From: Chitinivorax sp. PXF-14
GTDB taxonomy: Bacteria > Pseudomonadota > Gammaproteobacteria > Burkholderiales > SCOH01
Direction: 5' to 3'
DNA length: 64,000 bases
Assembly (NCBI RefSeq): GCF_040812015.1
Contig: NZ_JBFNXJ010000001.1
Span: forward strand, 124,001 to 188,000
Below are positions 14,607 to 40,142 of this stretch, piece after piece (the stretch's first letter is position 1; each line of letters opens with the position of its first letter). Made by a program: the position numbers and the translations under genes. The notes beneath the pieces are model-generated. The model saw only the letters and a program-made list of their open reading frames with translations, did not search any database and was not told the DNA's origin.

Positions 14607-14718
14607 GGGGCGGTCGGGTGGATCATAGACTGAAAATATATTTATGCGCATATCGATAGTTTCTGTTTGGTTGTGCCAATAATGATTGGCGTGGCAGTGG
14701 CTATGGGAAGGTGATTGC

Positions 14719-17409
14719 ATGACACAAGCTGTTTTTCACTACTGGGGTAAGGCAAAACCGTTGATAGACGATGGAATTGCCTATCACCTACTGCCATACC
14801 ACTCTCTGGACGTAGCTGCGGTTGCTGCCGCCTGGTGGGATGCCAGCCCAACCGTTGAACGCCTGTTTTGTACGCTGTGTGCTGGACAGGAATCACACAT
14901 AGTGCGGGCATGGGTGCTCTTTTTTGTTGCAATGCACGACCTGGGCAAATTCGACATTCGATTCCAGGCTCAATCGAGCCAATCCGTGTTGTGCTGCCGA
15001 ATAGACATGACCGAAGATTTGCTGAGTCGCGTTGGGGGAACGCATGAATACAACCATCGTCCTTTTAACCATGGGCCACGCGGTGCTTTTTGGTTTTTCA
15101 GCGAATATCAAAACTGGTTCGGTATTGTCGACAGTCGACGCCGATGTGCGCGGGCTTGGCAACCATGGGTTGCTGCCGTTACCGGGCATCACGGAGTGAT
15201 TCCGGATGGAATTGCATCAGAGCAACGCCTAACCGTCCCGGTGGATCGCTCCTTGCTTGAATATGACCGTCAAGCCCGCCGCGATTGGATACTGGTGCTC
15301 GAGCAGCTGTTTCTTCAACCGGTAGGACTGGATCTACGTGCATTACCGCCAATAATGTCCGATGCAGATGTGGCGCTGTTGGCGGGATTTTGTTCGATCT
15401 GTGATTGGATCGGTTCCAATGAAGAAGACTTTCAGTACTGCTCACAGCCGTTAGATAGTACTAGCGATCTAGCAAACTATTTCAACAGTAGGCTTGAGCA
15501 GGTCTCCAAAGACCAATGTTTGGTCCGTTTTGGCCTCGTCCATGCAGTAAAGCCATATCAGGGAGTGGGGGCCCTGCTTGCTGCTAACCGTTTACCTCGG
15601 CAGGTGCAAACCTTGGTCGACGAATTACCTCTGAGTTGCGGCCTCACCTTGGTCGAAGCACCGACTGGCTCGGGTAAAACAGAAGCGGCGCTGGCTTATG
15701 CTTGGCGATTGCTGTCGGCTGGGCTAGCGGAAGGGGTCATATTCGCCCTGCCTACTCAGGCAACCGCAAACGCAATGCTGGCGCGTTTGACCATTCTTGC
15801 CGATCACCTTTTTGAGGATGGGGCCAATGTCGTTCTGGCGCATGGAAAGGCGAAGTATCACAGTGGATTTCAGCGCCTCAAGGAAATAGGCTACCAAGCG
15901 AGTTTGCAGGCAGATGACGATATCCGTGTGCAGTGTGTCGAGTGGCTGGCCCAGAGCCGTAAGCGGGTTTTCCTTGGGCAAATTGGTGTTTGCACCATCG
16001 ATCAGGTGCTCTTGTCAGTGCTGCCATTCAAGCATCGTTTTGTGCGTGGATTCGGTCTGATGAAAAGCGTGCTGATTGTGGATGAGGTGCACGCCTACGA
16101 CGCCTATATGTATGGCTTGCTTGAACGGGTATTGGCTGCACAGTGCAGGGTTGGGGCAAGCGCAATCTTGCTGTCAGCCACGCTGCCCTCTTCTCAGCGG
16201 GGTAAGCTTGCTGGTGCGTGGGGAGCGAAGCCTGAACTGGATGCTGAGGCGCCATACCCTTTAGTTACCTCCATCCAGCAGGATGGGGAATCGACTTCCT
16301 TTCAATTACAGGATCCTGCACAACAACCTCCTGAGCGAAAGGTACAGATCGAATGCCTGACGAAACAGGGGCTGCTCCCGGACGAAACCCTGCTAGCTCA
16401 AATTGTTGATGCGGTTAACGGCGGTGCGCATGTTGCCGTTGTTTGCAATCTGGTCGCAGACGCCCAGCGCGTTGCTCGCCAGCTGCGCTGCATGGCCCCA
16501 ACGTGCCAGGTCGACTTGTTTCATGCGCGCTACCGGTTCTACGACCGAGCACAGATTGAACAGCAAGTATTGCAGACCTACGGCCCTGGAAATCGGTTGG
16601 GAGGTGGGCGTGTGCTCGTGGCGACCCAGGTCATCGAGCAGAGCCTTGATTTGGATGGGGACTGGCTCATTACGCAGCTATGTCCTGTGGACCTGTTATT
16701 TCAGCGTCTTGGACGTTTGCACCGGCATTTGCGTAGCACCAGGCCGAAAGGTTTTGAGCAACCTCATTGCACGGTGTTGATGCCCGTTGACTCTGACTAC
16801 GGTGCGCACAAGGCCATCTATGGCAATACCCGTGTGTTATGGCGTACTCAACAGATGTTGCAAGGTCTTGATGGCTTGCCGCTATGCTTTCCATTCGCAT
16901 ACAGATCCTGGATCGAGCGAGTGTACCAAGAATCCCCATGGCTCGATGAACCTGCCGATATTTCAATGGGATATGACTGTTTTTACGGAGAGGAGCGGGC
17001 CAAGGCAAATAATGCGACGCACTGGTGCATGACTTCGATGAGCGAGTTTGCTGAAAGTGAGCAAGCGATTCGCGTCTTGACGCGAGATGGCGAGATGGCC
17101 CGCGCTGTTTTGCTGATAGATGAAGAGGGTAAGCCATTGGGTCTCGATCCTGCATTGGATCCGGACGAGGCACTCGACCTGGCCACCATCGGCGTTCCAA
17201 ACAGTTGGCAGTCGTGCTTGCCACCCGCGGATGACGACGGCCGCCATCGCCTGACAGTTCGTGCAGACGGGGAGGGGTGGATGGGTTCCGTGGGTGAGGC
17301 TCGATTTCGCTACGACATGGAGTTCGGCCTGGAAATGAGTAGATCGGGCGATGCCGTCCAGGTATCGCCCGAGCAGTCCCCACAAGAGTGGGGAACAGGA
17401 CCTGTGTAA
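14719..17409 (+). CDS. cas3: Cas3 helicase-nuclease, type I-E
   Basis: An 896-residue fused HD nuclease and superfamily 2 helicase. HD residues: H28 in the YHSLD motif, H73-D74 in AMHDLGKFD, and GHH in VTGHHGVIPDG. Helicase: Walker A PTGSGKTEAA near 315-324, DEVH at 455-458, SATLPS (motif III), and motif VI QRLGRLHRH near 662-670. All are intact. The start at 14719 is set by GGAAGGTG upstream; the frame extends 11 codons further but without a ribosome site. Cascade recruits Cas3 to unwind and shred target DNA. The last 14 codons run through a degenerate CRISPR repeat lying on the opposite strand (17370-17398), so the C-terminus SPEQSPQEWGTGPV is probably not constrained by Cas3 function. Confidence 0.97.
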   Translation: MTQAVFHYWGKAKPLIDDGIAYHLLPYHSLDVAAVAAAWWDASPTVERLFCTLCAGQESHIVRAWVLFFVAMHDLGKFDIRFQAQSSQSVLCCRIDMTEDLLSRVGGTHEYNHRPFNHGPRGAFWFFSEYQNWFGIVDSRRRCARAWQPWVAAVTGHHGVIPDGIASEQRLTVPVDRSLLEYDRQARRDWILVLEQLFLQPVGLDLRALPPIMSDADVALLAGFCSICDWIGSNEEDFQYCSQPLDSTSDLANYFNSRLEQVSKDQCLVRFGLVHAVKPYQGVGALLAANRLPRQVQTLVDELPLSCGLTLVEAPTGSGKTEAALAYAWRLLSAGLAEGVIFALPTQATANAMLARLTILADHLFEDGANVVLAHGKAKYHSGFQRLKEIGYQASLQADDDIRVQCVEWLAQSRKRVFLGQIGVCTIDQVLLSVLPFKHRFVRGFGLMKSVLIVDEVHAYDAYMYGLLERVLAAQCRVGASAILLSATLPSSQRGKLAGAWGAKPELDAEAPYPLVTSIQQDGESTSFQLQDPAQQPPERKVQIECLTKQGLLPDETLLAQIVDAVNGGAHVAVVCNLVADAQRVARQLRCMAPTCQVDLFHARYRFYDRAQIEQQVLQTYGPGNRLGGGRVLVATQVIEQSLDLDGDWLITQLCPVDLLFQRLGRLHRHLRSTRPKGFEQPHCTVLMPVDSDYGAHKAIYGNTRVLWRTQQMLQGLDGLPLCFPFAYRSWIERVYQESPWLDEPADISMGYDCFYGEERAKANNATHWCMTSMSEFAESEQAIRVLTRDGEMARAVLLIDEEGKPLGLDPALDPDEALDLATIGVPNSWQSCLPPADDDGRHRLTVRADGEGWMGSVGEARFRYDMEFGLEMSRSGDAVQVSPEQSPQEWGTGPV

Positions 17410-17459
17410 GAGGCTTCCGCTTCCTGCAGTCGGTTCATCCCCATTTTGATGAGGATGAA
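17370..17459 (-). ncRNA. candidate Cas-regulating crRNA-like RNA (CreR type): degenerate repeat-guide-repeat
   Basis: Two degenerate copies of the array repeat lie on the minus strand with exactly 32 nt between them, giving the same 61-nt spacing as the array. The upstream repeat (17459 to 17431) matches the last 13 bases exactly, TGGGGATGAACCG, including the 8-nt handle. Its 5' part has changed but still pairs as CCTCAT-CAAA-ATGGGG: one pair is replaced by a compensatory U-A and one is G-U. That G-U pair would be a C-A mismatch in a plus-strand RNA, so the structure favours minus-strand transcription. The downstream repeat (17398 to 17370) keeps CTGTTCCCCAC and GTGGGGA with only the loop altered (TCTT), but has lost the handle, which is not needed there. 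The guide (17430 to 17399) starts ACTGCAGGAAGCGG. Processing by Cas6e would give a normal 61-nt crRNA. It overlaps the 3' end of cas3. Its own promoter is not certain. Confidence 0.82.
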
Positions 17460-17472
17460 TAGATTTTAGCCG

Positions 17473-17507
17473 AGTCAGGAGTTATTGGCTACTCTTCCAA
17501 CAGTCTT
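17473..17507 (-). promoter_or_regulatory. partial protospacer with AAG PAM for the CreR-like guide, at the cas8e promoter
   Basis: On the minus strand AAG (17507-17505) is followed by ACTGTTGGAAGAG. The guide of the neighbouring repeat-flanked RNA begins ACTGCAGGAAGCG. Positions 1-4, 7-11 and 13 match. The mismatches in this stretch are 5, 6 and 12, and position 6 is one that type I-E Cascade does not read. Later matches are scattered (14 of 32 overall). Seed-limited pairing of this kind allows Cascade binding without full target cleavage in known systems. The PAM overlaps the first two bases of the predicted -35 box of cas8e. Confidence 0.75.
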
Positions 17508-17534
17508 GAATAATTTATCGACTGGCGATAGTAT
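17506..17534 (+). promoter_or_regulatory. predicted promoter of the cas8e-cas2 operon
   Basis: TTGAAT at 17506-17511 and TAGTAT at 17529-17534 are separated by 17 bases, each box matching consensus at four of six positions. The transcript would start near 17541 and have a leader of about 140 bases. Cascade bound at the adjoining protospacer would cover the -35 region. No other pair of this quality was seen between 17460 and 17680. Confidence 0.5.
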
Positions 17535-17680
17535 CTGTCTGGCTCTGGTCGCTAATGGGCGGAACATCAAGCTGATCGAGGGGCTGTGGGAGGTGTGGGC
17601 AAGATAGAGCCATAGGGCTTGGTGTTGCTTGCGCTAGTGATCGTCATCATTGTGCGGGCGCTAATGGAGGCAAAAATTTA

Positions 17681-19168
17681 ATGAAACTGCTTGTCGATCC
17701 GTTCATTCCTGTCGCTGATGGCCAGCGGCACACACTGGTAACCCTCCGGCATGTGCTTTGCACAGACAACCCATTCGAACTGGTGCTGCCTCGAGATGAC
17801 ATGGAGCTTGCCTGTCTGCAATTGATCATTTGTTTGGTGCAGGCGATCTTCCCTCCGAGGGATGTCGATTCGTGGTGGGATCGGCTTGATTCACCAATGG
17901 ATGAGGTGGAGTTTGATGCCGGTATCGCTCCCTATCTCGATTGGTTTGATCTTGATCATCCGACGCAGCCGTTCATGCAGGCCCGAGGTGTCAAGGCCGG
18001 TGAACCCACTCCGGTACAAAAACTGCTGGTGGGGCTGCCTGAGGGCAATAACCACGCTTTCTTCAACGACGCAGGGGAGGTCACCCATTTGTCGCCTCCT
18101 GCCGCTGCCATTGCGCTATTCAATCAAGCCAGCTGCGCGCCAAATTTTGGTGGCGGGTTCAAGGGGGCATTACGTGGTGTTCCCATCACCACGCTTATTG
18201 CAGGGGAGCATCTGCGCGATACGGTGTGGCGAAATGTGCTGCATGAAGAGAGTTTACGAAAGCTGCTGCCGGCCTACGATGAGACTCGTGCTCAGCCACC
18301 GGTCTGGGTGAAGCCGATTCAGCCTGCCGAGCGGATTCATGCAACATCGATAGGATTGTTGCGCGGGCTGTTCTGGCAACCGGCTCGTGTCGAATTGATG
18401 TTTTCGGCCTTCGCAGCTGAGTGTGGCTTGCTTGATGGCCCGCCACAGCGGGGGTACGCCGGGTTCAACAAGGAAAAGTTCGTCTTTGATGTCCAGGGCT
18501 TGTGGCCTCATCCACATAGCCCGAGTGAATTCGAGATCAAGAAAAACGAGAAGACCGAGCGTTGCCTTGCTTTTACAACGATTGCGCCTGCCTGGACACA
18601 ATGCAGCCGTTTCCTGTTTGAACATCCTAGTCCCAAAGAAGGGTCGTCTGCCGCGGCGGTTGTGCGGCAGTGGCGGTCGTGTAGTGGAGCGCCGCTACGC
18701 CTGATTGTTGGCGGATACCGTAACAAGCAGGCATCGGTTATCGAGAGACGGCATGAACTCTTCTCGATTGCAGCTGGCTGGAGTAGCGCAGAAGGTGGGG
18801 GGCGTATCGAAAGAACAATTCAACGTGCGCTCGACTACAAGAAATTGCTCCGCGGCAAATTGTACCGAGTTGTAAAAGGCGACCGCGATAAGCACTTGCG
18901 CGGGGTTGGGGGCGCGTTGCAGGAGATTGGAGAGGAGCGGTTTTACCATCGCACTGAGCCGCTCATACACCGCAACCTATCTGAGCCCATTGTTGTAGAC
19001 GAGTTTGCTGACTTTCTACTGTTCAACAAAGCACTTGGGACGATTTGCCGAAACCTGTTCGATGAAATGACCGAGCCTTATACGCGTGATCCTATATTGC
19101 TGCGTACGGTCGCCTTGGCGCGCGTCAGCTTGAATAATGATCTCAAACCTCTGGAGGAAGGCCAATGA
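17681..19168 (+). CDS. cas8e: Cascade large subunit Cas8e (Cse1/CasA)
   Basis: A 495-residue type I-E large subunit, normal length. The N-terminal KLLVDPFIPV segment, the PFMQARGV region, and NNHAFFND and PPAAAIALFNQASCAPNFGGGFKG in the middle are family hallmarks. The C-terminal part is the four-helix bundle. Cas8e reads the PAM and recruits Cas3. It starts at an ATG with GGAGG about 12 bases upstream. It is the first gene of the Cascade operon; the next gene overlaps its stop by four bases. Its promoter region contains the putative self-regulating protospacer. Confidence 0.96.
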   Translation: MKLLVDPFIPVADGQRHTLVTLRHVLCTDNPFELVLPRDDMELACLQLIICLVQAIFPPRDVDSWWDRLDSPMDEVEFDAGIAPYLDWFDLDHPTQPFMQARGVKAGEPTPVQKLLVGLPEGNNHAFFNDAGEVTHLSPPAAAIALFNQASCAPNFGGGFKGALRGVPITTLIAGEHLRDTVWRNVLHEESLRKLLPAYDETRAQPPVWVKPIQPAERIHATSIGLLRGLFWQPARVELMFSAFAAECGLLDGPPQRGYAGFNKEKFVFDVQGLWPHPHSPSEFEIKKNEKTERCLAFTTIAPAWTQCSRFLFEHPSPKEGSSAAAVVRQWRSCSGAPLRLIVGGYRNKQASVIERRHELFSIAAGWSSAEGGGRIERTIQRALDYKKLLRGKLYRVVKGDRDKHLRGVGGALQEIGEERFYHRTEPLIHRNLSEPIVVDEFADFLLFNKALGTICRNLFDEMTEPYTRDPILLRTVALARVSLNNDLKPLEEGQ

Positions 19169-19617
19169 GCGGTATCGACTTTATCGCCTTGCATGACCGG
19201 TATCAGGCGCTAGCCAAGGCGGACGGTGGGTTCCGTTCCCAATTGGGCAAGCGCATCGGCCATCCGGATGACCTTTATGATAGGCCGGCCTTTTACCAGT
19301 TGTTTGCAGGTTACAGGGAGCTGCCGAAATGGGCTGCCCGTGTCGCGTTCATGTTGCCGTGTTGCCGGCATGCTACCGACGCAAAACCTTTGGGGGCGCA
19401 ATTGGCGGCGGCGAAAGTAGGGGAGGCTCGGGTCATGCAGGTTGCGCGGGCTGGTGCACCAAACGACTTGATCCAATTGCGCCGACTGCTGATGCGTATC
19501 GAACCGACCGTCAATTGGGCGGAGTTTGGCTGGACGCTGGTGGGGTGGGAAACCCCGGATAAGAAGCGACAGTTGATTGCCGATTTTTTTATTGGCCAAT
19601 CCATTCAAACCAAATAA
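19165..19617 (+). CDS. cas11: Cascade small subunit Cas11 (Cse2/CasB)
   Basis: A 150-residue helical protein at the position and of the size of Cse2. ALAKADGGFRSQLGKRIGHP and LIQLRRLLMRIEPTVNWAEF resemble the conserved family helices, the latter near the usual C-terminal RFxxLL-type motif. Two copies line the inner face of Cascade and stabilise the displaced strand. The ATGA overlap with cas8e couples their translation. cas7 follows after 12 bases. Confidence 0.93.
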   Translation: MSGIDFIALHDRYQALAKADGGFRSQLGKRIGHPDDLYDRPAFYQLFAGYRELPKWAARVAFMLPCCRHATDAKPLGAQLAAAKVGEARVMQVARAGAPNDLIQLRRLLMRIEPTVNWAEFGWTLVGWETPDKKRQLIADFFIGQSIQTK

Positions 19618-19629
19618 AGGGGAATCACC

Positions 19630-20721
19630 ATGTCCAAGAACTTCGTCAATTTCCACGTCCTCATCTCGCATAGTCCTTCGTGCTTAAATCGCGACGACAT
19701 GAACATGCAGAAGAGTGCTGTGTTCGGCGGTGCCCGTCGAGTGCGCGTATCCAGCCAGAGCTTGAAAAGAGCCATGCGCACCAGTGATTACTACCAACAG
19801 TATTTAGGGGAACGTTCGATCCGTACTCGTGAGCTTGGCCGCTTGCAAGGCTCATTGGAGAGGGCGTTGCATGAACGCTTTGATGCGAAGCTTGTTGAAC
19901 GGACGCTGTCGCTGGTGAGTGGCAAGGAGGGCATCGCCGCCGATACACGAGCCGATGCCGTTGCGCCTTGGTCTGTCGAAGAGTTCGCGAAGTTGTGTGA
20001 ATTGGTAAAACGCGCAGATGCTGAGGGGCTGGATTCGAAGAAAACCGAGAAGCTGGTTGCCAATGAGGCGTTGGTAATCAAACAGGCGATGGCACGGAAT
20101 GTCGATATCGCGCTGTCTGGTCGCATGGCGACCAGTGGCCTCATGGGCAGTGTAGATGGCGCGATGGCGATGGCCCACTCGATTACGACGCATGCCGTTG
20201 ATACCGATATTGATTGGTTTACCGCTGTTGACGACCTGATTGCTGATGCCGGTGAGGTTGGTGCTGGCCACCTTGATACACAGGAGTTCTCCTCTGGGGT
20301 GTTCTACCGTTATGCCAGTTTGAATCTACCCCAGCTTCAATTGAACCTTGGGGGGGCGGGCAGGGAGCGTGCGCTCGAAATCGCGGCTCACTTGCTGCAC
20401 ATGATGGCCACTGTCGTACCGACGGCGAAGCAGCAATCCTTTGCCGCCCACAACTTGGCTGACTTTGCGCTGGTTACCTTGGCTGATCAGCCCATTTCTT
20501 TGGCAAATGCATTCGAAGCGCCAGTCAAAGCCGCTCGAGAGGGTGGCTATCTGGCTCCCTCAATCAGCAAACTGACTGAATACTGGCAGGGGATTCATCA
20601 GGGGTATGGCCTGGATGAGTATGCCGCCGTATTCCAGCTGCGAGAGCAACTGGATGAGGTGAAAACCTTCAACAAGCTGCCTCAACTGGAGGCGTGGTTG
20701 TTGGCTGACGGGCAAGTGTAA
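19630..20721 (+). CDS. cas7: Cascade backbone subunit Cas7 (Cse4/CasC)
   Basis: A 363-residue RAMP protein. The N-terminus FVNFHVLISHSPSCLNRDD is the Cse4/CasC signature, followed by KSAVFGGARRVRVSSQSLKRAMR, which grips the guide. RMATSGLMGSVDGAMAMAHSITTHAV and FSSGVFYRYASLNL are further conserved blocks. Six copies form the helical backbone along the guide. AAAGGGGAATC precedes the ATG. cas5 follows after 10 bases. Confidence 0.97.
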   Translation: MSKNFVNFHVLISHSPSCLNRDDMNMQKSAVFGGARRVRVSSQSLKRAMRTSDYYQQYLGERSIRTRELGRLQGSLERALHERFDAKLVERTLSLVSGKEGIAADTRADAVAPWSVEEFAKLCELVKRADAEGLDSKKTEKLVANEALVIKQAMARNVDIALSGRMATSGLMGSVDGAMAMAHSITTHAVDTDIDWFTAVDDLIADAGEVGAGHLDTQEFSSGVFYRYASLNLPQLQLNLGGAGRERALEIAAHLLHMMATVVPTAKQQSFAAHNLADFALVTLADQPISLANAFEAPVKAAREGGYLAPSISKLTEYWQGIHQGYGLDEYAAVFQLREQLDEVKTFNKLPQLEAWLLADGQV

Positions 20722-20731
20722 GGGAGCCAAG

Positions 20732-21430
20732 ATGGCCGACTATCTGATACTTAAGCTTGATGGCGTGATGCAGTCCTGGGGTGACCACACGTACGAGGAT
20801 TTCCGACCGACTGTTGGCTTCCCTACGCGATCCGGATTGGTGGGCCTGCTTGCGGCATGTCTTGGCATAGATCGATCAGCAAGCGACGAGCTTACCGTGC
20901 TCAACCGTGATCTCGAGTTCGCAGTGCGTGCCGAAGCGCGCAGGAGGGCTGATGCCGTCGGTGTGGTGCATTCTGCACCGGTAGTGCGAATTACCGATTT
21001 CCACACCGTTATGGATGCCCGAAAGGTGGATGGTTCATCGAGAGAGTTTCCTGTGGTATCCAAACGTCAATACCTTTGCGACGCTGTATTTACTGTGGCA
21101 CTTCGGCCGCGCCATGGCTCGACTTGGTCGCTCGATCAGATTGAAGCTGCGGTAAAACGGCCAGTCTATACGCCCAGCCTTGGCCGACGGGCCTGCGCTC
21201 TGTCTAGGCCTCTGTTTGAAGGGCGTGTCGAGGCCGCCGATGCACTGATCGCCCTGGCTCAAGTTGGCCCAGAGGAGGCAATCGGCGACGTGGTCTACGC
21301 AGACGCAGACGCGGGAAGTGCCGGCCCAATATTGAGGTTACGGGACGATCCCATATTTGGCCGGCGGCGCCAATTTGCCAATCGGCCGGTACTGGTGTTG
21401 GGTACAGGGAGTGGCCATGTATCTGAGTAA
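20732..21430 (+). CDS. cas5: Cascade subunit Cas5e (CasD)
   Basis: A 232-residue RAMP protein of the CasD group. MADYLILKLDGVMQSWGDHTYEDFRPT at the N-terminus and PTRSGLVGLLAACLGI are diagnostic. GRRACALSRPL lies near residue 150. It caps the crRNA by binding the 8-nt 5' handle. Its last 14 bases overlap the cas6e start. All conserved segments are present. Confidence 0.96.
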   Translation: MADYLILKLDGVMQSWGDHTYEDFRPTVGFPTRSGLVGLLAACLGIDRSASDELTVLNRDLEFAVRAEARRRADAVGVVHSAPVVRITDFHTVMDARKVDGSSREFPVVSKRQYLCDAVFTVALRPRHGSTWSLDQIEAAVKRPVYTPSLGRRACALSRPLFEGRVEAADALIALAQVGPEEAIGDVVYADADAGSAGPILRLRDDPIFGRRRQFANRPVLVLGTGSGHVSE

Positions 21431-22006
21431 GGTGTTTCTCGATTGGGAGGTCAGCCGTAACCCCTACGATTGGCATCGAGCGCTATGGCGCTTGTTTCCG
21501 GATAGGGACGGCGAGGCACGTGATTTTCTTTATCGTGTCGAGCAGATGCAGGTGGGGCAAGGTGTGTGGATTCTAATGCTGTCCGCGATGAAGCCTCAAA
21601 GGGAGTCTAAAGGTGTGCGCCTGATTGCGGAGGCCAAGTCTGTCGATTGGCTTGACCTTCCTGACGGTATTGCATTGCGTTTCAAATTGACGGCAAATCC
21701 CACCAAAAAGATTCGTGATAGAGAACATCCTGAGCGCGCTTTACGTGTGCCCCTGATTCGTGAAGATGAACAAATTGCTTGGCTTGAACGCAAGCTGGAG
21801 GGGGCAGCCAGCTTGGAGTCAGTCATTGTCACATCCAATCCCCCCGTGTTTTTCCGCAAGGGCGGGAGCGCCGGTAAGGTGGCAACCGTCACGTTCCAAG
21901 GGGTATTGCAGATCATATCCAGCGAGGCAGTTGCCCGCTTGATGGAAGGTGGCTTGGGCTCGGCAAAGTCTTTTGGATGCGGGTTGCTGAGTTTGGCGCG
22001 CGTTTG

Positions 22007-22007
<1 letters not shown>
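21417..22007 (+). CDS. cas6e: CRISPR RNA endonuclease Cas6e (CasE/Cse3)
   Basis: 196 residues from the ATG at 21417, chosen for the GGGAG site and because MYLSKVFLDW is the usual family N-terminus. The catalytic histidine is H20 in NPYDWHRALWRLFP, the same position as in E. coli CasE. The glycine-rich C-terminal motif GGLGSAKSFGCGLLSL is intact. It cleaves after base 21 of each repeat and stays bound to the 3' hairpin. The same hairpin is kept in the minus-strand repeats near 17.4 kb. Its stop overlaps the cas1 start (TGATG). Confidence 0.97.
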
Positions 22008-23195
<1,188 letters not shown>

Positions 23196-23197
<2 letters not shown>

Positions 23198-23291
23198 AAA
23201 TGGATGAAATTGGGCGGGTGTTAGGCGCCTGAAGTTTGGTGGTTTTGTCGGTGTTGGAATTTTTGCATTAGATCAAATACTTATTTTTGGT
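23196..23291 (+). promoter_or_regulatory. CRISPR leader with IHF-like site
   Basis: 96 bases between cas2 and the first repeat. The part near the array is AT-rich. GATCAAATACTTA at 23271-23283 fits the IHF consensus WATCARNNNNTTR at every defined position but the first. It ends nine bases before the first repeat, the spacing used in the E. coli I-E leader for IHF-guided spacer integration. A clear promoter was not identified here, so the array may be read from the cas operon, from a weak leader promoter, or both. Confidence 0.7.
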
Positions 23292-26200
23292 CTGTTCCCC
23301 ACGCCCGTGGGGATGAACCGCCGTTTGATAGCGTCAATCTTGACGAAGAAACCTGTTCCCCACGCCCGTGGGGATGAACCGTCAGCGTATTCGTATCGGT
23401 CGAATCGGCCTGACTGTTCCCCACGCCCGTGGGGATGAACCGTGGTATAAAAGTACGCTATCGCAACTACGGAACTGTTCCCCACGCCCGTGGGGATGAA
23501 CCAGCGCGAAGTTCGCCGCGTTTGAATGCTGCAATCTGTTCCCCACGCCCGTGGGGATGAACCGCTGCATGGGGCGCACCGCAGGGCCAGCAGCAACTGT
23601 TCCCCACGCCCGTGGGGATGAACCGCCGCCAAACGCAACATTTCCTTCGCCGAGTTCCTGTTCCCCACGCCCGTGGGGATGAACCGGTCAGCGATGAACT
23701 CGCCACCAAACTCGTCCCCTGTTCCCCACGCCCGTGGGGATGAACCGTCTCTCTATGAAGAGCTGAGCCGCAAGCCGGACTGTTCCCCACGCCCGTGGGG
23801 ATGAACCGGTGGCTCGCTCGAACGGCACCACCAAGGCGGCCTGTTCCCCACGCCCGTGGGGATGAACCGGCGCGTCGCGGCTTGTTGGCGGTATCGGCGG
23901 TCTGTTCCCCACGCCCGTGGGGATGAACCGCCGGCAGGCCGAATGCCACGCCGGCCACCCATCTGTTCCCCACGCCCGTGGGGATGAACCGCCGGCAGGC
24001 CGAATGCCACGCCGGCCACCCATCTGTTCCCCACGCCCGTGGGGATGAACCGCCAGTACTCACCCCGGCGATAGCCCCATTGCTCCTGTTCCCCACGCCC
24101 GTGGGGATGAACCGATGTTTGTCCAACTGAAACGCTCCAACAACGGCTGTTCCCCACGCCCGTGGGGATGAACCGAAGGAGAAACGGGATGAACAAGACC
24201 AACGAACCTGTTCCCCACGCCCGTGGGGATGAACCGAACTTGCAAGATGTGCGGCACATGTTGCGAAACCTGTTCCCCACGCCCGTGGGGATGAACCGAC
24301 ATTCTGCCAGCTCGAATTTGCGCGCGAGGTCTGTTCCCCACGCCCGTGGGGATGAACCGACATTCTGCCAGCTCGAATTTGCGCGCGAGGTCTGTTCCCC
24401 ACGCCCGTGGGGATGAACCGCCGTTCTGGGATTGGGTAGCGAGCTGGGCGCGCTGTTCCCCACGCCCGTGGGGATGAACCGCCGGTGCATATCGTGCCTA
24501 TATGGGATAGCAACTGTTCCCCACGCCCGTGGGGATGAACCGCAACCTGGGCAATTCTTGCGACTGTCGCCAAACTGTTCCCCACGCCCGTGGGGATGAA
24601 CCGCCATCGATTGCCGGCTTCGGCATGAACTGGCACTGTTCCCCACGCCCGTGGGGATGAACCGAATCACGGCATTGAGGTCTAACCCAACTTGCTCTGT
24701 TCCCCACGCCCGTGGGGATGAACCGGCTGCGGCCACCATGGCCATCTTGTCCATGTGCTGTTCCCCACGCCCGTGGGGATGAACCGAACAGTTTCTTGCT
24801 GGCCCAGTCGGTGAATTTCTGTTCCCCACGCCCGTGGGGATGAACCGGGTAGGGCGGACATGATTGATTGGTGTCTGCACTGTTCCCCACGCCCGTGGGG
24901 ATGAACCGGGAAGATTTAGGGATAGTGGGAAAAGTGCGAACTGTTCCCCACGCCCGTGGGGATGAACCGTCACATTTAGTGACTTGTCACTTTATGCGTA
25001 ACTGTTCCCCACGCCCGTGGGGATGAACCGCGATCATAAATGCGGCGCATAGTTTCGCGCTGCTGTTCCCCACGCCCGTGGGGATGAACCACACTACTTG
25101 GCACCGACACGAATAGCGCGCCGCTGTTCCCCACGCCCGTGGGGATGAACCGGCGCATGGTGGCGATCAGGCCGGGGGTTGCGCCTGTTCCCCACGCCCG
25201 TGGGGATGAACCGATTTAACCGGCCCGGTTAATCGTGTTCAAACTCTGTTCCCCACGCCCGTGGGGATGAACCGTGGCCTGAGTTTGTGCTGACGCGGCA
25301 GCCTGCCTGTTCCCCACGCCCGTGGGGATGAACCGGGCATGCAGGCGTTGAAGCTCCTCAGTGGCGCCTGTTCCCCACGCCCGTGGGGATGAACCGGGAG
25401 CGGGCAACGTGGCGAGCGGCGTGGTTACCTGTTCCCCACGCCCGTGGGGATGAACCTCCCCCCTATCCGCCGCCTGCGCCGCCTCTACACTGTTCCCCAC
25501 GCCCGTGGGGATGAACCGCGCGGCAACCTGCCGCTCCAATACTGCCACGCCTGTTCCCCACGCCCGTGGGGATGAACCGCCGGCCAGAACAGGCCGGCTT
25601 TTTTCACGTCACTGTTCCCCACGCCCGTGGGGATGAACCGTACGTCGAGAAATCGGCGGCACTCGCCACCAGCTGTTCCCCACGCCCGTGGGGATGAACC
25701 GTATGACGGGGCAACGCCACGCGACGCGCAGCACTGTTCCCCACGCCCGTGGGGATGAACCGACAGGCGCAAAAGGACTCGCAGAGCATTACCACTGTTC
25801 CCCACGCCCGTGGGGATGAACCGGCGCCGCTGGCCAGCGCGGCGCTAACCGGTGTCTGTTCCCCACGCCCGTGGGGATGAACCGGTTATTCGTAAGCAAA
25901 ACGGCTTCTTGGTTTTCTGTTCCCCACGCCCGTGGGGATGAACCGATCGTGGGCCAGTACCAAGGCGGCCTCAAGCACTGTTCCCCACGCCCGTGGGGAT
26001 GAACCGCAACTCGAAGCGCGACGAGAAGGTTTTACGAACTGTTCCCCACGCCCGTGGGGATGAACCGGCTTCGGCGGTCGGCTTCACGATTTCGCGCATC
26101 TGTTCCCCACGCCCGTGGGGATGAACCGAAGTGATAGTCGCCCACGACGAAGCGGTTAGACTGTTCCCCACGCCCGTGGGGATGAACCTCCCCCCTATCC

Positions 26201-29200
26201 GCCGCCTGCGCCGCCTCTACACTGTTCCCCACGCCCGTGGGGATGAACCTACATCGAGCGCGACATGTTGACCGGAGAGGTCCTGTTCCCCACGCCCGTG
26301 GGGATGAACCGGTGCGATGCGGGTAATCGTCGACCAGCAACATCTGTTCCCCACGCCCGTGGGGATGAACCGCTGCACCACGTCATTCTGCTGCCGGGCG
26401 ACAACTGTTCCCCACGCCCGTGGGGATGAACCGGCTGGCTCGGGCATCGAGGCTGGCTCGGGCATCTGTTCCCCACGCCCGTGGGGATGAACCGTGCAGG
26501 CCGGGTGAGATGGGGGGCTATGTCAACTGTTCCCCACGCCCGTGGGGATGAACCGACCAAAAAAAGGCGGGCGGAGATGGAACGAAACTGTTCCCCACGC
26601 CCGTGGGGATGAACCGACCTGCTACGCTCGATCATTTCCGCCGCCATTCTGTTCCCCACGCCCGTGGGGATGAACCGACTTGTTCAGCCGGTCGGCTGCG
26701 CTGTCGCCCTGTTCCCCACGCCCGTGGGGATGAACCGGGGTTGAATCATGGCATGGACTAAGCGCGAATCTGTTCCCCACGCCCGTGGGGATGAACCAGC
26801 GCCGCTTCTTCGAACGCAGCCGCCATAGCACTGTTCCCCACGCCCGTGGGGATGAACCGCATGGCTCGACGCGGAAATCACCCGCCTGACCCTGTTCCCC
26901 ACGCCCGTGGGGATGAACCGTTCTATCGAACACAAATAAATAACATTGTTGCCTGTTCCCCACGCCCGTGGGGATGAACCGAAAGGAAAAGCGCGATGCA
27001 GCCCGAACAAGACCTGTTCCCCACGCCCGTGGGGATGAACCGATTGTTACCAATGCGCGCGCCGGGCAATCGTTCTGTTCCCCACGCCCGTGGGGATGAA
27101 CCGTCGGTTAAACGATTCGACGCCGGTTATATCGTCTGTTCCCCACGCCCGTGGGGATGAACCGTCGGCATCGGTTGTGGTGTTGTTGATTTGGACCTGT
27201 TCCCCACGCCCGTGGGGATGAACCGTCGAGGATTTTATTAGGAAATCCCTGCACTAACTGTTCCCCACGCCCGTGGGGATGAACCGATATCGGCGCAGGC
27301 GTCGCCGCCCGCATCAACCTGTTCCCCACGCCCGTGGGGATGAACCGCATCTGCGCTGACGCAGAGTGAGGCAGCAGCCCTGTTCCCCACGCCCGTGGGG
27401 ATGAACCGGGCGATGTTGAGGGTACTACGTATGACAATACCTGTTCCCCACGCCCGTGGGGATGAACCGGCCGCTGGCTTCATGTTCGTTGCCGGTCTGA
27501 TCTGTTCCCCACGCCCGTGGGGATGAACCAGTCGAATTTAAATCGGTTGATCGTGTAATTCCCTGTTCCCCACGCCCGTGGGGATGAACCGGCCATACGC
27601 GCGCCTTCAACATCATCGAACTGCTGTTCCCCACGCCCGTGGGGATGAACCGCTGTTCGCCCGAGTCAAAGCGGAGCGCGACACCTGTTCCCCACGCCCG
27701 TGGGGATGAACCGGATTTCCGTGCCATCGAACCATCGCATCGGGCCTGTTCCCCACGCCCGTGGGGATGAACCGTCATGCGTCTGGTTATCCTTGCCGGT
27801 CAGCAGCTGTTCCCCACGCCCGTGGGGATGAACCGGCGGTTGTGGAGACCTTGGTACTGTCGTCGAACTGTTCCCCACGCCCGTGGGGATGAACCGTAGG
27901 GGACGCCGGCCTCGGTGTCGAGGAACCACCTGTTCCCCACGCCCGTGGGGATGAACCGGATTACCTCTTTGCCGGGATGGGTTGGTCGAGCTGTTCCCCA
28001 CGCCCGTGGGGATGAACCAGATTCTTTCGAGTCCGACTTTCCCTGCGCGCACTGTTCCCCACGCCCGTGGGGATGAACCAGCCGCGCTCCGGCTCGACCT
28101 GGTAGATATGGTCTGTTCCCCACGCCCGTGGGGATGAACCGGCGTGAATAACGGCCTGCTGGCCCCTGGCATGCTGTTCCCCACGCCCGTGGGGATGAAC
28201 CGCGATCTCGTTCGCCAGCTTCATGATGAGCATCCTGTTCCCCACGCCCGTGGGGATGAACCGATAGGGATTCTGGCGAATTCCTGTATCCGAGCCTGTT
28301 CCCCACGCCCGTGGGGATGAACCTCCTTGACACGGCGAACCTGCCAATATCAAATCCTGTTCCCCACGCCCGTGGGGATGAACCGCGTTTTGATAACGGG
28401 GATATTGGCGTTGATAACTGTTCCCCACGCCCGTGGGGATGAACCGCTAACCGGTCGGGCCGGGCGCTCCAATTCTGGACTGTTCCCCACGCCCGTGGGG
28501 ATGAACCGGCCGGGCTGCGCATGTTCCCGGCCGACCGCACCCTGTTCCCCACGCCCGTGGGGATGAACCGACGCCCCATCATAAAAATATTGACCTTTGG
28601 CACTGTTCCCCACGCCCGTGGGGATGAACCGCAATAGTCCAAATATACCGGCCAAATTGACGCCTGTTCCCCACGCCCGTGGGGATGAACCGAATTCAAC
28701 AAGCTCAAACACAATACATTTCCGCTGTTCCCCACGCCCGTGGGGATGAACCGAACGCGTCGTTGATGGGCTTCTGCACTAATCGCTGTTCCCCACGCCC
28801 GTGGGGATGAACCGTCTTGATGCTCACTTGGCAACGCTCACGCGAACTGTTCCCCACGCCCGTGGGGATGAACCGCAGATTTGAACGATCATTTTTTCAG
28901 CCCTGCTCTGTTCCCCACGCCCGTGGGGATGAACCGCATTCGCTTTGGGCGCGTATTCCTACCATTGTCTGTTCCCCACGCCCGTGGGGATGAACCGGAC
29001 GGCGGTCACTGCTTCGAGTTTATGAGCCGCCTGTTCCCCACGCCCGTGGGGATGAACCGTTCGTCGCCAAGGCCCGTGAGCAGGGCTGGGACTGTTCCCC
29101 ACGCCCGTGGGGATGAACCGACACCACCGCGCCATCCCATACGCCCCCCTCGCTGTTCCCCACGCCCGTGGGGATGAACCGCCGGGCAGCGGAGATGATG

Positions 29201-31690
29201 ATTTAGATCAGGACTGTTCCCCACGCCCGTGGGGATGAACCTTTTCCTCGGTCGCAATCTCCAGTGCCTCAACCCTGTTCCCCACGCCCGTGGGGATGAA
29301 CCGTCGCCAGACTTGACTGCGGCGATCGCGTCCTCGCTGTTCCCCACGCCCGTGGGGATGAACCGTGGTGTGGATCAACCCCGCCTGCTCTGACGCGCTG
29401 TTCCCCACGCCCGTGGGGATGAACCGCAGGAAAACGCCGCCCGGCTGCTGGCCGCCAGCTGTTCCCCACGCCCGTGGGGATGAACCGAGGTACTTCTGGC
29501 CGTAGAGGGTGCGGTAGAACTGTTCCCCACGCCCGTGGGGATGAACCGACGGCAGACAGCATTGCGCGTGACGCCAAGGTCTGTTCCCCACGCCCGTGGG
29601 GATGAACCGTAGTTGATCACTTCATCTTCTAGTTCCGCCGCGCTGTTCCCCACGCCCGTGGGGATGAACCGCCCGATCACCTCGCCCGTCTGCTCACACA
29701 CCGCCTGTTCCCCACGCCCGTGGGGATGAACCGGCTAGGTCGGTGGCGATGGGGCAGCCGCCGCTCTGTTCCCCACGCCCGTGGGGATGAACCGCCGAGA
29801 AATATCTGCGCCAATGGATCGGTCGACCTGTTCCCCACGCCCGTGGGGATGAACCGTCGCGTAGGAACGTCGTTCACAGCCCCACCTGCTGTTCCCCACG
29901 CCCGTGGGGATGAACCTGGGTCAGCGTCACCGGCACGACGGCGGCGGCCCTGTTCCCCACGCCCGTGGGGATGAACCGTTGCAGGCGGCTGCGCGCGGTA
30001 CCGCACTGGACTGTTCCCCACGCCCGTGGGGATGAACCGCAGCAGATGGCCAAGTCGGTAGTCACGCCGCACTGTTCCCCACGCCCGTGGGGATGAACCG
30101 TCGGGGAGCCCTCTATGGTTCAGGGCCGGCAGCTGTTCCCCACGCCCGTGGGGATGAACCGGGCACGGTCCAGGCCGAAGAGCTTCGGGGGCACTGTTCC
30201 CCACGCCCGTGGGGATGAACCGGATGTGGGCTTTTTGGCGTCATTGGTCAGCGACTGTTCCCCACGCCCGTGGGGATGAACCGTCTCAGAGATCAGCATG
30301 CCGGCCAGGAAGGCGCTGTTCCCCACGCCCGTGGGGATGAACCGCTGCGATCCAGTCTGCTATAGGCGAGCACGCCCTGTTCCCCACGCTCGTGGGGATG
30401 AACCGGTGAACACCTACCTGGACGCTGAGAGCATTGCCTGTTCCCCACGCCCGTGGGGATGAACCGGAGCTAATCGCCGAGGTCAAGGCCGGCTACAACC
30501 TGTTCCCCACGCCCGTGGGGATGAACCGCGGTGACCCTCAAGATCAACCCCGCGTCCTGCACTGTTCCCCACGCCCGTGGGGATGAACCGGCTTTACGCG
30601 TTCGCCCGGAATGGCTTCATTCCCTGTTCCCCACGCCCGTGGGGATGAACCGTGAAGCCGTCGGAACAGGCGCGCCAATTCTGCCTGTTCCCCACGCCCG
30701 TGGGGATGAACCGAAAAAATCCGTGAAACACTTCAATATGGGGCTCTGTTCCCCACGCCCGTGGGGATGAACCGACATGGGATGCAACGCTCGGTGCACC
30801 GAGCCTCTGTTCCCCACGCCCGTGGGGATGAACCGGAGCGTGTGACGCAAGAGCATGTCGGTGCCAACTGTTCCCCACGCCAGTGGGGATGAACCGTGAC
30901 GCCGGAGCAGTAATCCATGGCCGACCTGCTGTTCCCCACGCCCGTGGGGATGAACCGCACAGTGCGAGCACCCCCTGAATCCTGAATCCCTGTTCCCCAC
31001 GCCCGTGGGGATGAACCGACACCGATTTTCAAGACCACCACACATGAGGCCTGTTCCCCACGCCCGTGGGGATGAACCGGCCGCTGAGGGCAAGGAGTAC
31101 CACGACCCCAACTGTTCCCCACGCCCGTGGGGATGAACCGGTGCAGCGGGTCAACCAGATGATCCGCCACCCCTGTTCCCCACGCCCGTGGGGATGAACC
31201 GTCGGGGTTGGTGAGTGGTGTTCGGCATTTTTACTGTTCCCCACACCCGTGGGGATGAACCGGCGCTCGCCGCATACAGTTGGGGCGAGGGCAACTGTTC
31301 CCCACGCCCGTGGGGATGAACCGCCAGAATCCTCAACCGCTTCTGCCGCAAGCCGCTGTTCCCCACGCCCGTGGGGATGAACCGATTCCGTGCAGCGAGT
31401 CGATGTTGCCATAGGCCTGTTCCCCACGCCCGTGGGGATGAACCGCCGCCAGTATTGTTGGGGATGATCCCCATCAGCTGCTCCCCACGCCCGTGGGGAT
31501 GAACCGCTGGCGAGCCCGGCCTCGCGTCACTTTGTCACCTGTTCCCCACGCCCGTGGGGATGAACCGATGCGCTCAATACCTTCTTGCAGACACGAGCCC
31601 TGTTCCCCACGCCCGTGGGGATGAACCGGTGGCGGACGCCGAGGCCAGAATTGGCTGGCCACTGTTCCCCACACCTGTGGGGATGAGCCG
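23292..31690 (+). CRISPR. type I-E CRISPR array, 138 repeats and 137 spacers
   Basis: The 29-base repeat begins CTGTTCCCCAC, has loop GCCC, then GTGGGG, and ends with the handle ATGAACCG. Counting every repeat start from 23292 to 31662 gives 138 copies. Spacers are 32 nt, except fourteen of 33 and one of 31 (before 26709). Repeats are nearly identical except at the last base (G in 126; A in six; T in six) and in single changes at 30377, 30868, 31234, 31478 and 31662, all near the distal end. The leader end, where new spacers enter, is beside cas2. Spacers 11 and 12, 17 and 18, and 36 and 48 are identical pairs. The long frames in the array, full of PTGVGN or SSPRAWG motifs, are translations of the repeat and are not genes. 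Confidence 0.99.
25579..25604 (+). terminator. intrinsic-terminator-like spacer within the array (spacer 38)
   Basis: The last repeat base G25579 plus CCGGCC (25580-25585) pair with GGCCGGC (25592-25598) around a 6-base loop. Six Ts follow at 25599-25604. This is a textbook Rho-independent terminator in the direction of pre-crRNA synthesis. It was probably captured from the end of a phage or plasmid gene. It could stop transcription after the first 38 spacers unless antitermination acts. Confidence 0.65.
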
Positions 31691-40129: not shown

Positions 40130-40142
40130 CGAAGAGGAATAG

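Follow-up and report, generated by a model that had tools for sequence, protein, structure and literature searches.

Can a type I-E clustered regularly interspaced short palindromic repeats (CRISPR)-Cas system restrain its own expression through a guide that is encoded opposite the end of its cas3 gene? The question is raised by a stretch of 64,000 nucleotides (nt) from Chitinivorax sp. PXF-14 (contig NZ_JBFNXJ010000001.1, positions 124,001 to 188,000; the whole stretch is henceforth referred to as the window), in which a preliminary description had noticed two degenerate CRISPR repeats flanking a 32-nt guide. From this anatomy alone, and with no target named, it had proposed a guide of the CreR (cas-regulating RNA) type, a class reportedly introduced by Liu et al. 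in 2023 in Cell Host Microbe. Its premise that such guides repress cas promoters in several type I and type V systems agrees with PMC13131331, where autorepression by cas-regulating RNAs that are partially complementary to the promoter is stated for cas genes of types I-B, I-E and V-A. CreR is also described as a CRISPR RNA (crRNA)-like guide of type I and V-A systems, generally without a coupled toxin gene (PMC12737573). Here we report that the guide in the window faces an AAG-flanked, partially complementary site at the predicted cas8e promoter and that this arrangement recurs at related cas8e loci, where guide and target change together. From these comparisons we consider it likely that the element is a CreR-type guide that represses cas8e; guides of this type have already been reported for type I-E systems, and the element is presented as a further example of them.

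Results

The element lies on the minus strand of the window. Its upstream repeat, R1 (TTCATCCTCATCAAAATGGGGATGAACCG, 17431-17459), is identical to the array repeat (CTGTTCCCCACGCCCGTGGGGATGAACCG) at 19 of 29 positions and retains an intact 8-nt handle (ATGAACCG, 17438-17431) and a Cas6e-type stem of 6 bp (CCTCAT/ATGGGG), which differs from the stem of the array repeat in one compensatory change from C-G to U-A and in the presence of a G-U pair. The 32-nt guide (ACTGCAGGAAGCGGAAGCCTCTTACACAGGTC) follows at 17399-17430, and the downstream repeat, R2 (CTGTTCCCCACTCTTGTGGGGACTGCTCG, 17370-17398), is identical to the array repeat at 21 of 29 positions; over its first 22 nt the agreement is 19/22, the loop being the only difference there, so that the hairpin (17398-17377) is kept, and the handle is lost. 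The start-to-start period from R1 to R2 is 61 nt. By analogy with the anatomy of type I-E crRNAs, the predicted mature product would be a crRNA-like RNA of 61 nt (17378-17438, minus strand) composed of the 8-nt handle, the 32-nt guide and a 21-nt 3' hairpin. The coordinates and sequences thus confirm what the preliminary description had read from the letters: minus-strand degenerate repeats with a 61-nt period and 32 nt between them, an upstream copy that keeps handle and stem by way of one compensatory and one G-U pair, and a downstream copy with the stem kept, the loop changed and the handle lost. Its view that the element is embedded in the end of cas3 also holds, since the cas3 stop codon (17407-17409) sits within the guide and R2 is antisense to the last cas3 codons, encoding in the plus direction the Cas3 C-terminus ...SPQEWGTGPV.

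To the array repeat, R1 and R2 together score 40 of 58, compared with 32 when the element was masked; 100 Markov shuffles of the 55 kb beyond the array gave a maximum of 34. Agreement with the array repeat at 19 or more of 29 positions is found nowhere else in the window outside the array, except in reverse complements of the palindromic array repeats. Both hairpins are more stable than 200 of 200 shuffles (R1, -13.6 kcal/mol, z -5.2; R2, -12.8 kcal/mol, z -3.8). A scan of 17000-24500 against Rfam returned only three matches, all below the gathering score and inside the array, and no known RNA family at the element. What the window holds, then, is a mini-CRISPR with two degenerate repeats near cas genes. 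As a separate observation, R1 has an alternative fold, an 11-bp hairpin in which the 5' handle is paired over its first bases (UUCAU with AUGAA).

A type I-E guide needs an AAG-like protospacer-adjacent motif (PAM) and a seed, and every sixth base is flipped out of pairing. The PAM is given as AAG and the seed as positions 1-5 and 7-8 in PMC5904413. The best site near the element is AAG-ACTGTTGGAAGAG (17507-17492, minus strand), which lies on the same strand as the guide and 74 nt upstream of it and is compared with ACTGCAGGAAGCG in the guide. The predicted target (protospacer strand, 17473-17504, minus) follows the PAM (17505-17507, minus) and agrees with the guide at nine of the ten positions 1-5 and 7-11; guide and target are equal at positions 1-4, 7-11, 13, 15 and 18, and positions 6 and 12, which are expected to be flipped out, differ. 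The pattern AAGACTGNNGGAAG, written after the site had been seen, occurs a single time in the 4.42-Mb genome, at the target. The complement of the PAM, CTT, starts a -35-like stretch, CTTGAAT, of a predicted cas8e promoter (17506-17534, plus strand), which consists of TTGAAT (17506-17511), a spacer of 17 nt and TAGTAT (17529-17534) and is second best in the window by score. In a mechanical promoter scan, a different site on the sense strand, TTGGCT-18-AATAAT (17485-17514), is favoured instead; the target overlaps that site too. The limited complementarity behind a PAM that characterizes CreR is therefore found in the window, at the predicted cas8e promoter. On the minus strand, a predicted promoter for the guide RNA (17463-17491; TAGCCA at 17491-17486, 17 nt, TAAAAT at 17468-17463) ends 3 nt before R1, and its -35 falls within the target.

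Related loci were collected by Cas8e alignment, which gave 62 loci from named genomes with a best segment 38-51% identical to the Cas8e of the window (one at 34%). The 1000 nt upstream of cas8e were scanned in 61 of them, leaving out L074, where the match starts at residue 121; the distant Cas8e matches L007-L018 were likewise kept out of the unit scan. Distances to cas8e were measured to where the tblastn match begins, a point that is some residues into the protein in L027, L036, L054, L052 and L058. Four family-level genomes (G001-G004) gave zero matches to this DNA or to Cas8e, and the nearest Cas8e is ~51% identical. Among repeat pairs 60-62 nt apart, 18 scored at least 30, and all 18 are antisense to cas8e and lie 109-309 nt upstream of it; pairs scoring below 30 are a mixture of sense and antisense, from which three (L029, L039 and L027, score 27-29) were selected by visual inspection of handle and hairpin, extending the range to 359 nt upstream of cas8e. 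These 21 loci were chosen on their repeats and, together with the window, searched for targets afterwards. In 22/22 loci the top-ranked match of the guide is antisense, stands behind AAG and lies 63-135 nt upstream of the guide; 19 match at 10/10 positions, and the window, L043 and L030 match at 9/10. When guides were compared with the promoters of other loci (456 guide-promoter pairs, near copies excluded), none reached ten and six reached nine. A second scan, which looked for AAG, a seed match and a handle-like octamer, found antisense sites at 10/10 in 20 of 62 loci (the 61 and the window), none at 10/10 on the sense strand and none for 12 other triplets on either strand, and it added one carrier, L044. 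The antisense unit is accordingly present in 22 of the 61 related cas8e loci, or in 23 loci with the window, and 20 of these 23 carriers pair at 10/10 and three at 9/10. Some of the carriers resemble each other closely, L021 being a near copy of L023 and L066/L067 and L052/L058 being pairs of close sisters. The CreR-type guide proposed from anatomy has thus gained a target that is kept in 22 other loci. The carriers hold the repeats at a period of 60-62 nt, in keeping with the preliminary description, whose reading required relatives to preserve the repeats and the 61-nt spacing, and the remaining relatives are without the whole unit.

We then counted agreement position by position in 20 less redundant loci (leaving out L021, L058 and L067). 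The guide equals its target at positions 1-5 in 19, 20, 20, 20 and 19 loci and at positions 7-11 in 20, 20, 20, 20 and 19. At position 6 agreement is found in only 4/20 and at position 12 in 2/20; position 13 agrees in 16/20, positions 14-17 in 37 of 80 cells (46%) and positions 18-32 in 25% of cells, which equals chance. The seeds themselves differ between these loci by a mean of 6.8 of the ten positions. On this comparison, guide and target covary across the carriers with pairing kept, which is a stronger argument than the pairing within the R1 stem. The loss of agreement at positions 6 and 12, and its end near position 17, speaks against spacers recently copied from the promoter and for what we infer to be selection on Cascade binding without a full R-loop. 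The R1 stem, which the preliminary description had proposed to compare for conserved pairing, shows weak covariation: the arms of a locus form 4.5 of 6 pairs with each other and 3.85 when arms are swapped between loci, and the case is therefore not rested on it. In the close Ectothiorhodospira sisters L066 and L067, guide and target are near-identical and the guide-target distances (83 and 109) are 26 nt apart.

The surroundings of the target were compared in 22 carriers (L021 left out). The complement of the PAM, CTT, is followed by G in 18/22, which gives the TTG start of a -35 box, and a TANNNT -10 stands 23-24 nt from the PAM complement in 17/22, the next-highest non-overlapping offset reaching 7. 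If the promoter phased in this way is right, the PAM would share bases with the -35 box and the seed would lie directly upstream of it. In 17/22 carriers the target is located no further than 91 nt upstream of the guide, where it could overlap a promoter at R1, and repression of the guide's own promoter is therefore likely in those 17.

The unit occupies space that most related loci do not have. In the 18 carriers with a readable cas3 stop the gap between cas3 and cas8e measures 193-513 nt (L029, L052 and L080 are left out of this figure for unreliable cas3 stops, and L021 and L054 gave none), and in six of these 18, the window included, cas3 ends within R2 or the guide. In 37 of 39 non-carriers, cas3 and cas8e overlap by 1-20 nt, leaving no room for the unit; the other two are L062, with a gap of 87 nt, and L031, which is cut at a contig end so that its gap is not readable. 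L031 is counted as a non-carrier, and its small open reading frame (ORF; see below) suggests a truncated carrier. Six further loci from extra class and phylum genomes (L082 and L086 being duplicates of L045 and L032) yielded no unit (0/6), and the 183-nt gap upstream of cas8e in L087 holds none, which means that a gap alone does not imply a unit. Among the loci examined, the gap is needed for the unit and is not sufficient for it. A search upstream of cas3 in the fetched non-carrier loci, with four PAM triplets, returned only a repetitive stretch in L037 and a site in L078, neither of them flanked by repeat-like sequence. A quick Cas8e tree (60 labelled rows; L074 and L078 left out) requires 10 changes of the carrier label, compared with a mean of 18.8 for shuffled labels; judged from this tree, the unit is either old or mobile and has been repeatedly gained or lost.

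An ORF of 33-50 codons (henceforth mini-ORF), with an amphipathic-looking start and one membrane helix, is present between the target and cas8e in L031 and in 13 of the 23 carriers. In these 14 loci (L072, L070, L065, L073, L023, L021, L031, L024, L029, L058, L052, L039, L027 and L044) it is the first gene after the guide target, and a Shine-Dalgarno-like stretch, judged by eye, precedes most of them, with none evident in L073, L024 and L029. The ratio of nonsynonymous to synonymous substitution rates (dN/dS) is 0, 0.12 and 0.26 in the three measurable pairs, three more being saturated at synonymous sites, and these values indicate that the mini-ORF is under purifying selection in the measurable pairs. 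Scans of 8 of the 12 distinct peptides gave no match above a Pfam or NCBIfam cut-off. A hidden Markov model (HMM) built from the 12 distinct peptides, which its 14 source loci match by construction, detected a remnant in L036 (E 0.0013) and nothing better than E 2 in the 38 non-carriers other than L031. One peptide searched against plasmids gave zero matches, and the mini-ORF was found in 0/274 class genomes; G050, which had contributed an ORF to the model, served as positive control.

No intact frame is present in the window, where a remnant (GLVLLALVIVIIVRALMEAKI, 17616-17681, plus strand) has its helix part after a stop and its helix-forming start in another frame; its own stop overlaps the cas8e start, and the HMM did not detect it. 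Among ORFs, to which the search was confined (an ORF-less toxin RNA was not searched for), the window thus has no toxin gene downstream of the target of the kind that marks CreTA systems. Nine other carriers likewise gave no intact mini-ORF, and in L038, L066, L067 and L043 the short space before cas8e contains no candidate. Seven of these ten carriers still pair at 10/10, and regulation of cas8e alone would be a sufficient reason for the guide there. The three imperfect seeds (window, L043 and L030) all fall among carriers in which no intact mini-ORF was found, a distribution (3/10 versus 0/13) that is not significant (hypergeometric p ~0.07, by hand).

The cas genes around the element form a complete type I-E set, with Cas3, Cas8e, Cas11e, Cas7e, Cas5e, Cas6e, Cas1e and Cas2e all found by PADLOC models. 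On the plus strand, cas3 (Cas3e, a listed ORF) occupies 14686-17409, cas8e (cse1), the first complete gene downstream of the target, 17681-19168, and cas11e, cas7e, cas5e, cas6e, cas1e and cas2e together 19165-23195; they are followed by a canonical I-E array of 138 repeats (23292-31690, plus), on the strand opposite to the element. The last base of a CRISPR repeat can derive from the PAM; 12 of the 138 repeats end in A or T and not in G, and the last repeat is degenerate. A 31-base stretch at 24293 is repeated at 24354, two adjacent spacers being apparently largely identical. A pair of long direct repeats elsewhere in the window (37460-41711), spaced ~2.79 kb apart and with an identity of 74-80% in pieces, probably represents tandem paralogous genes.

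Discussion

The position of the guide, its target and the predicted promoters suggest how a CreR-type element would work in this locus. A one-spacer pseudo-CRISPR RNA would be transcribed from the minus strand and cut by Cas6e to yield a crRNA-like guide, which would be loaded on Cascade. The guided Cascade would pair, through positions 1-4, 7-11, 13 and 15, with the AAG-flanked site that touches the predicted cas8e -35; this pairing would be too short for attack by Cas3, yet located where RNA polymerase must bind. In this way Cascade would repress cas8e and the Cascade genes behind it and, as the predicted -35 of the guide promoter lies inside the target, probably the guide's own promoter as well. 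The outcome would be a negative feedback on the level of Cascade. As described for CreR in PMC12737573, this repression would be lifted once Cascade is diverted by ordinary crRNAs or by anti-CRISPRs.

Several points weigh against self-repression by this element. Within the window, the seed is mismatched at position 5 (rC against dA), which sets it apart from the 20 of 23 carriers without a mismatch among the ten positions; positions 14, 16 and 17 are unpaired, and the guide promoter is weak (9/12). L030 has, in addition to its antisense site, a sense-strand AAG site that matches at 9/10. The comparison of TANNNT boxes was framed after the sequences had been seen, a fixed-offset TATAAT profile peaked at 7 and 4, in the A+T-rich stretch that follows the PAM complement, and not at 23-24, and a -10 just before R1 showed no clear enrichment (14/22 versus 6-12 in other scan windows). 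From the literature, short-seed off-target binding of Cascade in E. coli left transcription unchanged, most such sites being expected to be intragenic (PMC5904413), and repression of promoters drops greatly with as few as 6 PAM-distal mismatches (work cited in PMC5904413). In I-F CreA, positions 2-5, 7-9 and 13-17 each mattered (PMC10097628), and the window is unpaired at 5, 14, 16 and 17.

The mini-ORF allows the same locus to be understood as an addiction module of the CreTA type, in which the guide would be the antitoxin (CreA), the repressed promoter would drive first a small membrane protein that is toxic and then cas8e, and loss of Cascade would free the toxin, the toxin gene having decayed in the window. 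Such a module would explain why a single-helix mini-ORF stands between target and cas8e in 13/23 carriers and L031, mostly behind a Shine-Dalgarno-like stretch and with low dN/dS in the three measurable pairs (0, 0.12 and 0.26), why the HMM has no significant match in the 38 non-carriers other than L031, and why all three carriers with imperfect seeds are without an intact mini-ORF; the I-F CreTA of Acinetobacter, moreover, has the same gap and geometry, with divergent creA, target, Shine-Dalgarno-led mini-ORF and next cas gene (PMC10097628). It fits poorly with the broken mini-ORF of the window, with the nine other carriers in which no intact mini-ORF was found, 7/9 of which still pair at 10/10 so that pairing is kept without it, and with the lack of any candidate before cas8e in L038, L066, L067 and L043; the excess of imperfect seeds is not significant, and toxicity of the mini-ORF is a supposition. 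We regard a module of this kind as quite unlikely for the window. Somewhat better placed, and still tentative, is the idea that the family descends from a type I-E CRISPR-addiction module; in the lineage of the window the toxin would have disappeared, leaving the guide to act solely as a cas regulator. The element may alternatively be a relic, a CreR that worked in an ancestor and is decaying in this genome, where it would no longer repress. The mismatch at seed position 5, the broken mini-ORF and the weak guide promoter are what a relic would look like; the R1 stem rebuilt by a compensatory change, the intact R1 handle and R2 stem, and the intact PAM and PAM-promoter spacing are not, and we judge decay to be unlikely. 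CreR-type repression, a relic and CreTA ancestry are not mutually exclusive.

Spacer length and repeat hairpins are also those of an ordinary short or ectopic CRISPR array, in which a defence spacer would have been integrated off-site and then degraded. The guide has zero matches to phages, and its only matches to plasmids are 19 nt long (E 0.7); the same site, orientation and promoter match are found in 22 other loci, and matching at chance past position 17 and lost at 6 and 12 is unlike a recently copied spacer. An origin as a defence spacer was rejected on the absence of a phage match, the chance-level plasmid match and the recurrence at 22 other loci, and we hold it to be very improbable. 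A chance resemblance within the cas3 coding sequence has the overlap with cas3 as the sole point in its favour; it was rejected because the pair score exceeds 100 of 100 shuffles (40 versus a maximum of 34), an agreement of 19/29 is attained nowhere else in the window outside the array, and the unit recurs with covarying targets, so that its probability is negligible.

A CreR-type guide, the reading that we prefer, has relatives in other systems. Cas9 is reportedly autoregulated by a single guide, the long-form tracrRNA (trans-activating crRNA), in work by Workman et al. in 2021. In that type II case, an effector is turned on its own promoter by a short-pairing, tracrRNA-derived guide; the proposed element resembles it in the aim of the effector and differs in type. 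Archaeal CreTA is of subtype I-B. Like the window, it has two degenerate repeats, of which the first is more diverged (here 19/29 versus 21/29), and it differs in subtype and in its toxin, an RNA that sequesters a tRNA (PMC8501985 and PMC9458426). Closer in arrangement is the I-F CreTA of three Acinetobacter strains, where, according to PMC10097628, a cas3-csy1 gap of ~400 bp, absent in most species, holds a divergent creA, a PAM-flanked partial target and a Shine-Dalgarno-led mini-ORF. The carriers share with it the gap between cas3 and the following cas gene, which is closed in most species that lack the module, as well as the divergent guide, the PAM-flanked partial target and the downstream Shine-Dalgarno-led mini-ORF; they differ in being type I-E with AAG as PAM and in having a mini-ORF of 33-50 codons with a membrane helix (33 bp in Acinetobacter), which is broken in the window. 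CreR as described in PMC13131331, PMC12737573 and PMC12948488, with type I-E among its subtypes, has, like the window, a mini-CRISPR whose guide is complementary in part to a PAM-flanked site at a cas promoter; the window element differs in being known from its sequence, with RNA and repression predicted. Literature searched on mini-CRISPR regulation, CreR and type I-E small membrane proteins consisted of reviews and related CreTA papers, and no primary description of a type I-E CreR was found in it.

The element is of interest for its comparative evidence, which is broad and clear, and for the membrane mini-gene linked to it. Probable RNA-guided self-repression of type I-E CRISPR genes becomes tied to an arrangement that recurs in distantly related bacteria and is recognizable in sequence alone, namely a gap between cas3 and cas8e, an antisense mini-CRISPR and, at the -35 region, an AAG. 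The covarying guides and targets constitute a natural read-out of the base pairs that matter (positions 1-5 and 7-11, followed by 13 and to some extent by 14-17, positions 6 and 12 being free), which is independent of assays in E. coli. If an addiction ancestry is true, the PAM would be built into the -35 region of the repressed promoter in most members, and either the loss of Cascade or an encounter with an anti-CRISPR would induce both cas8e and a membrane toxin. The small membrane protein linked to the unit raises the question whether Cascade guards a toxin in type I-E systems.

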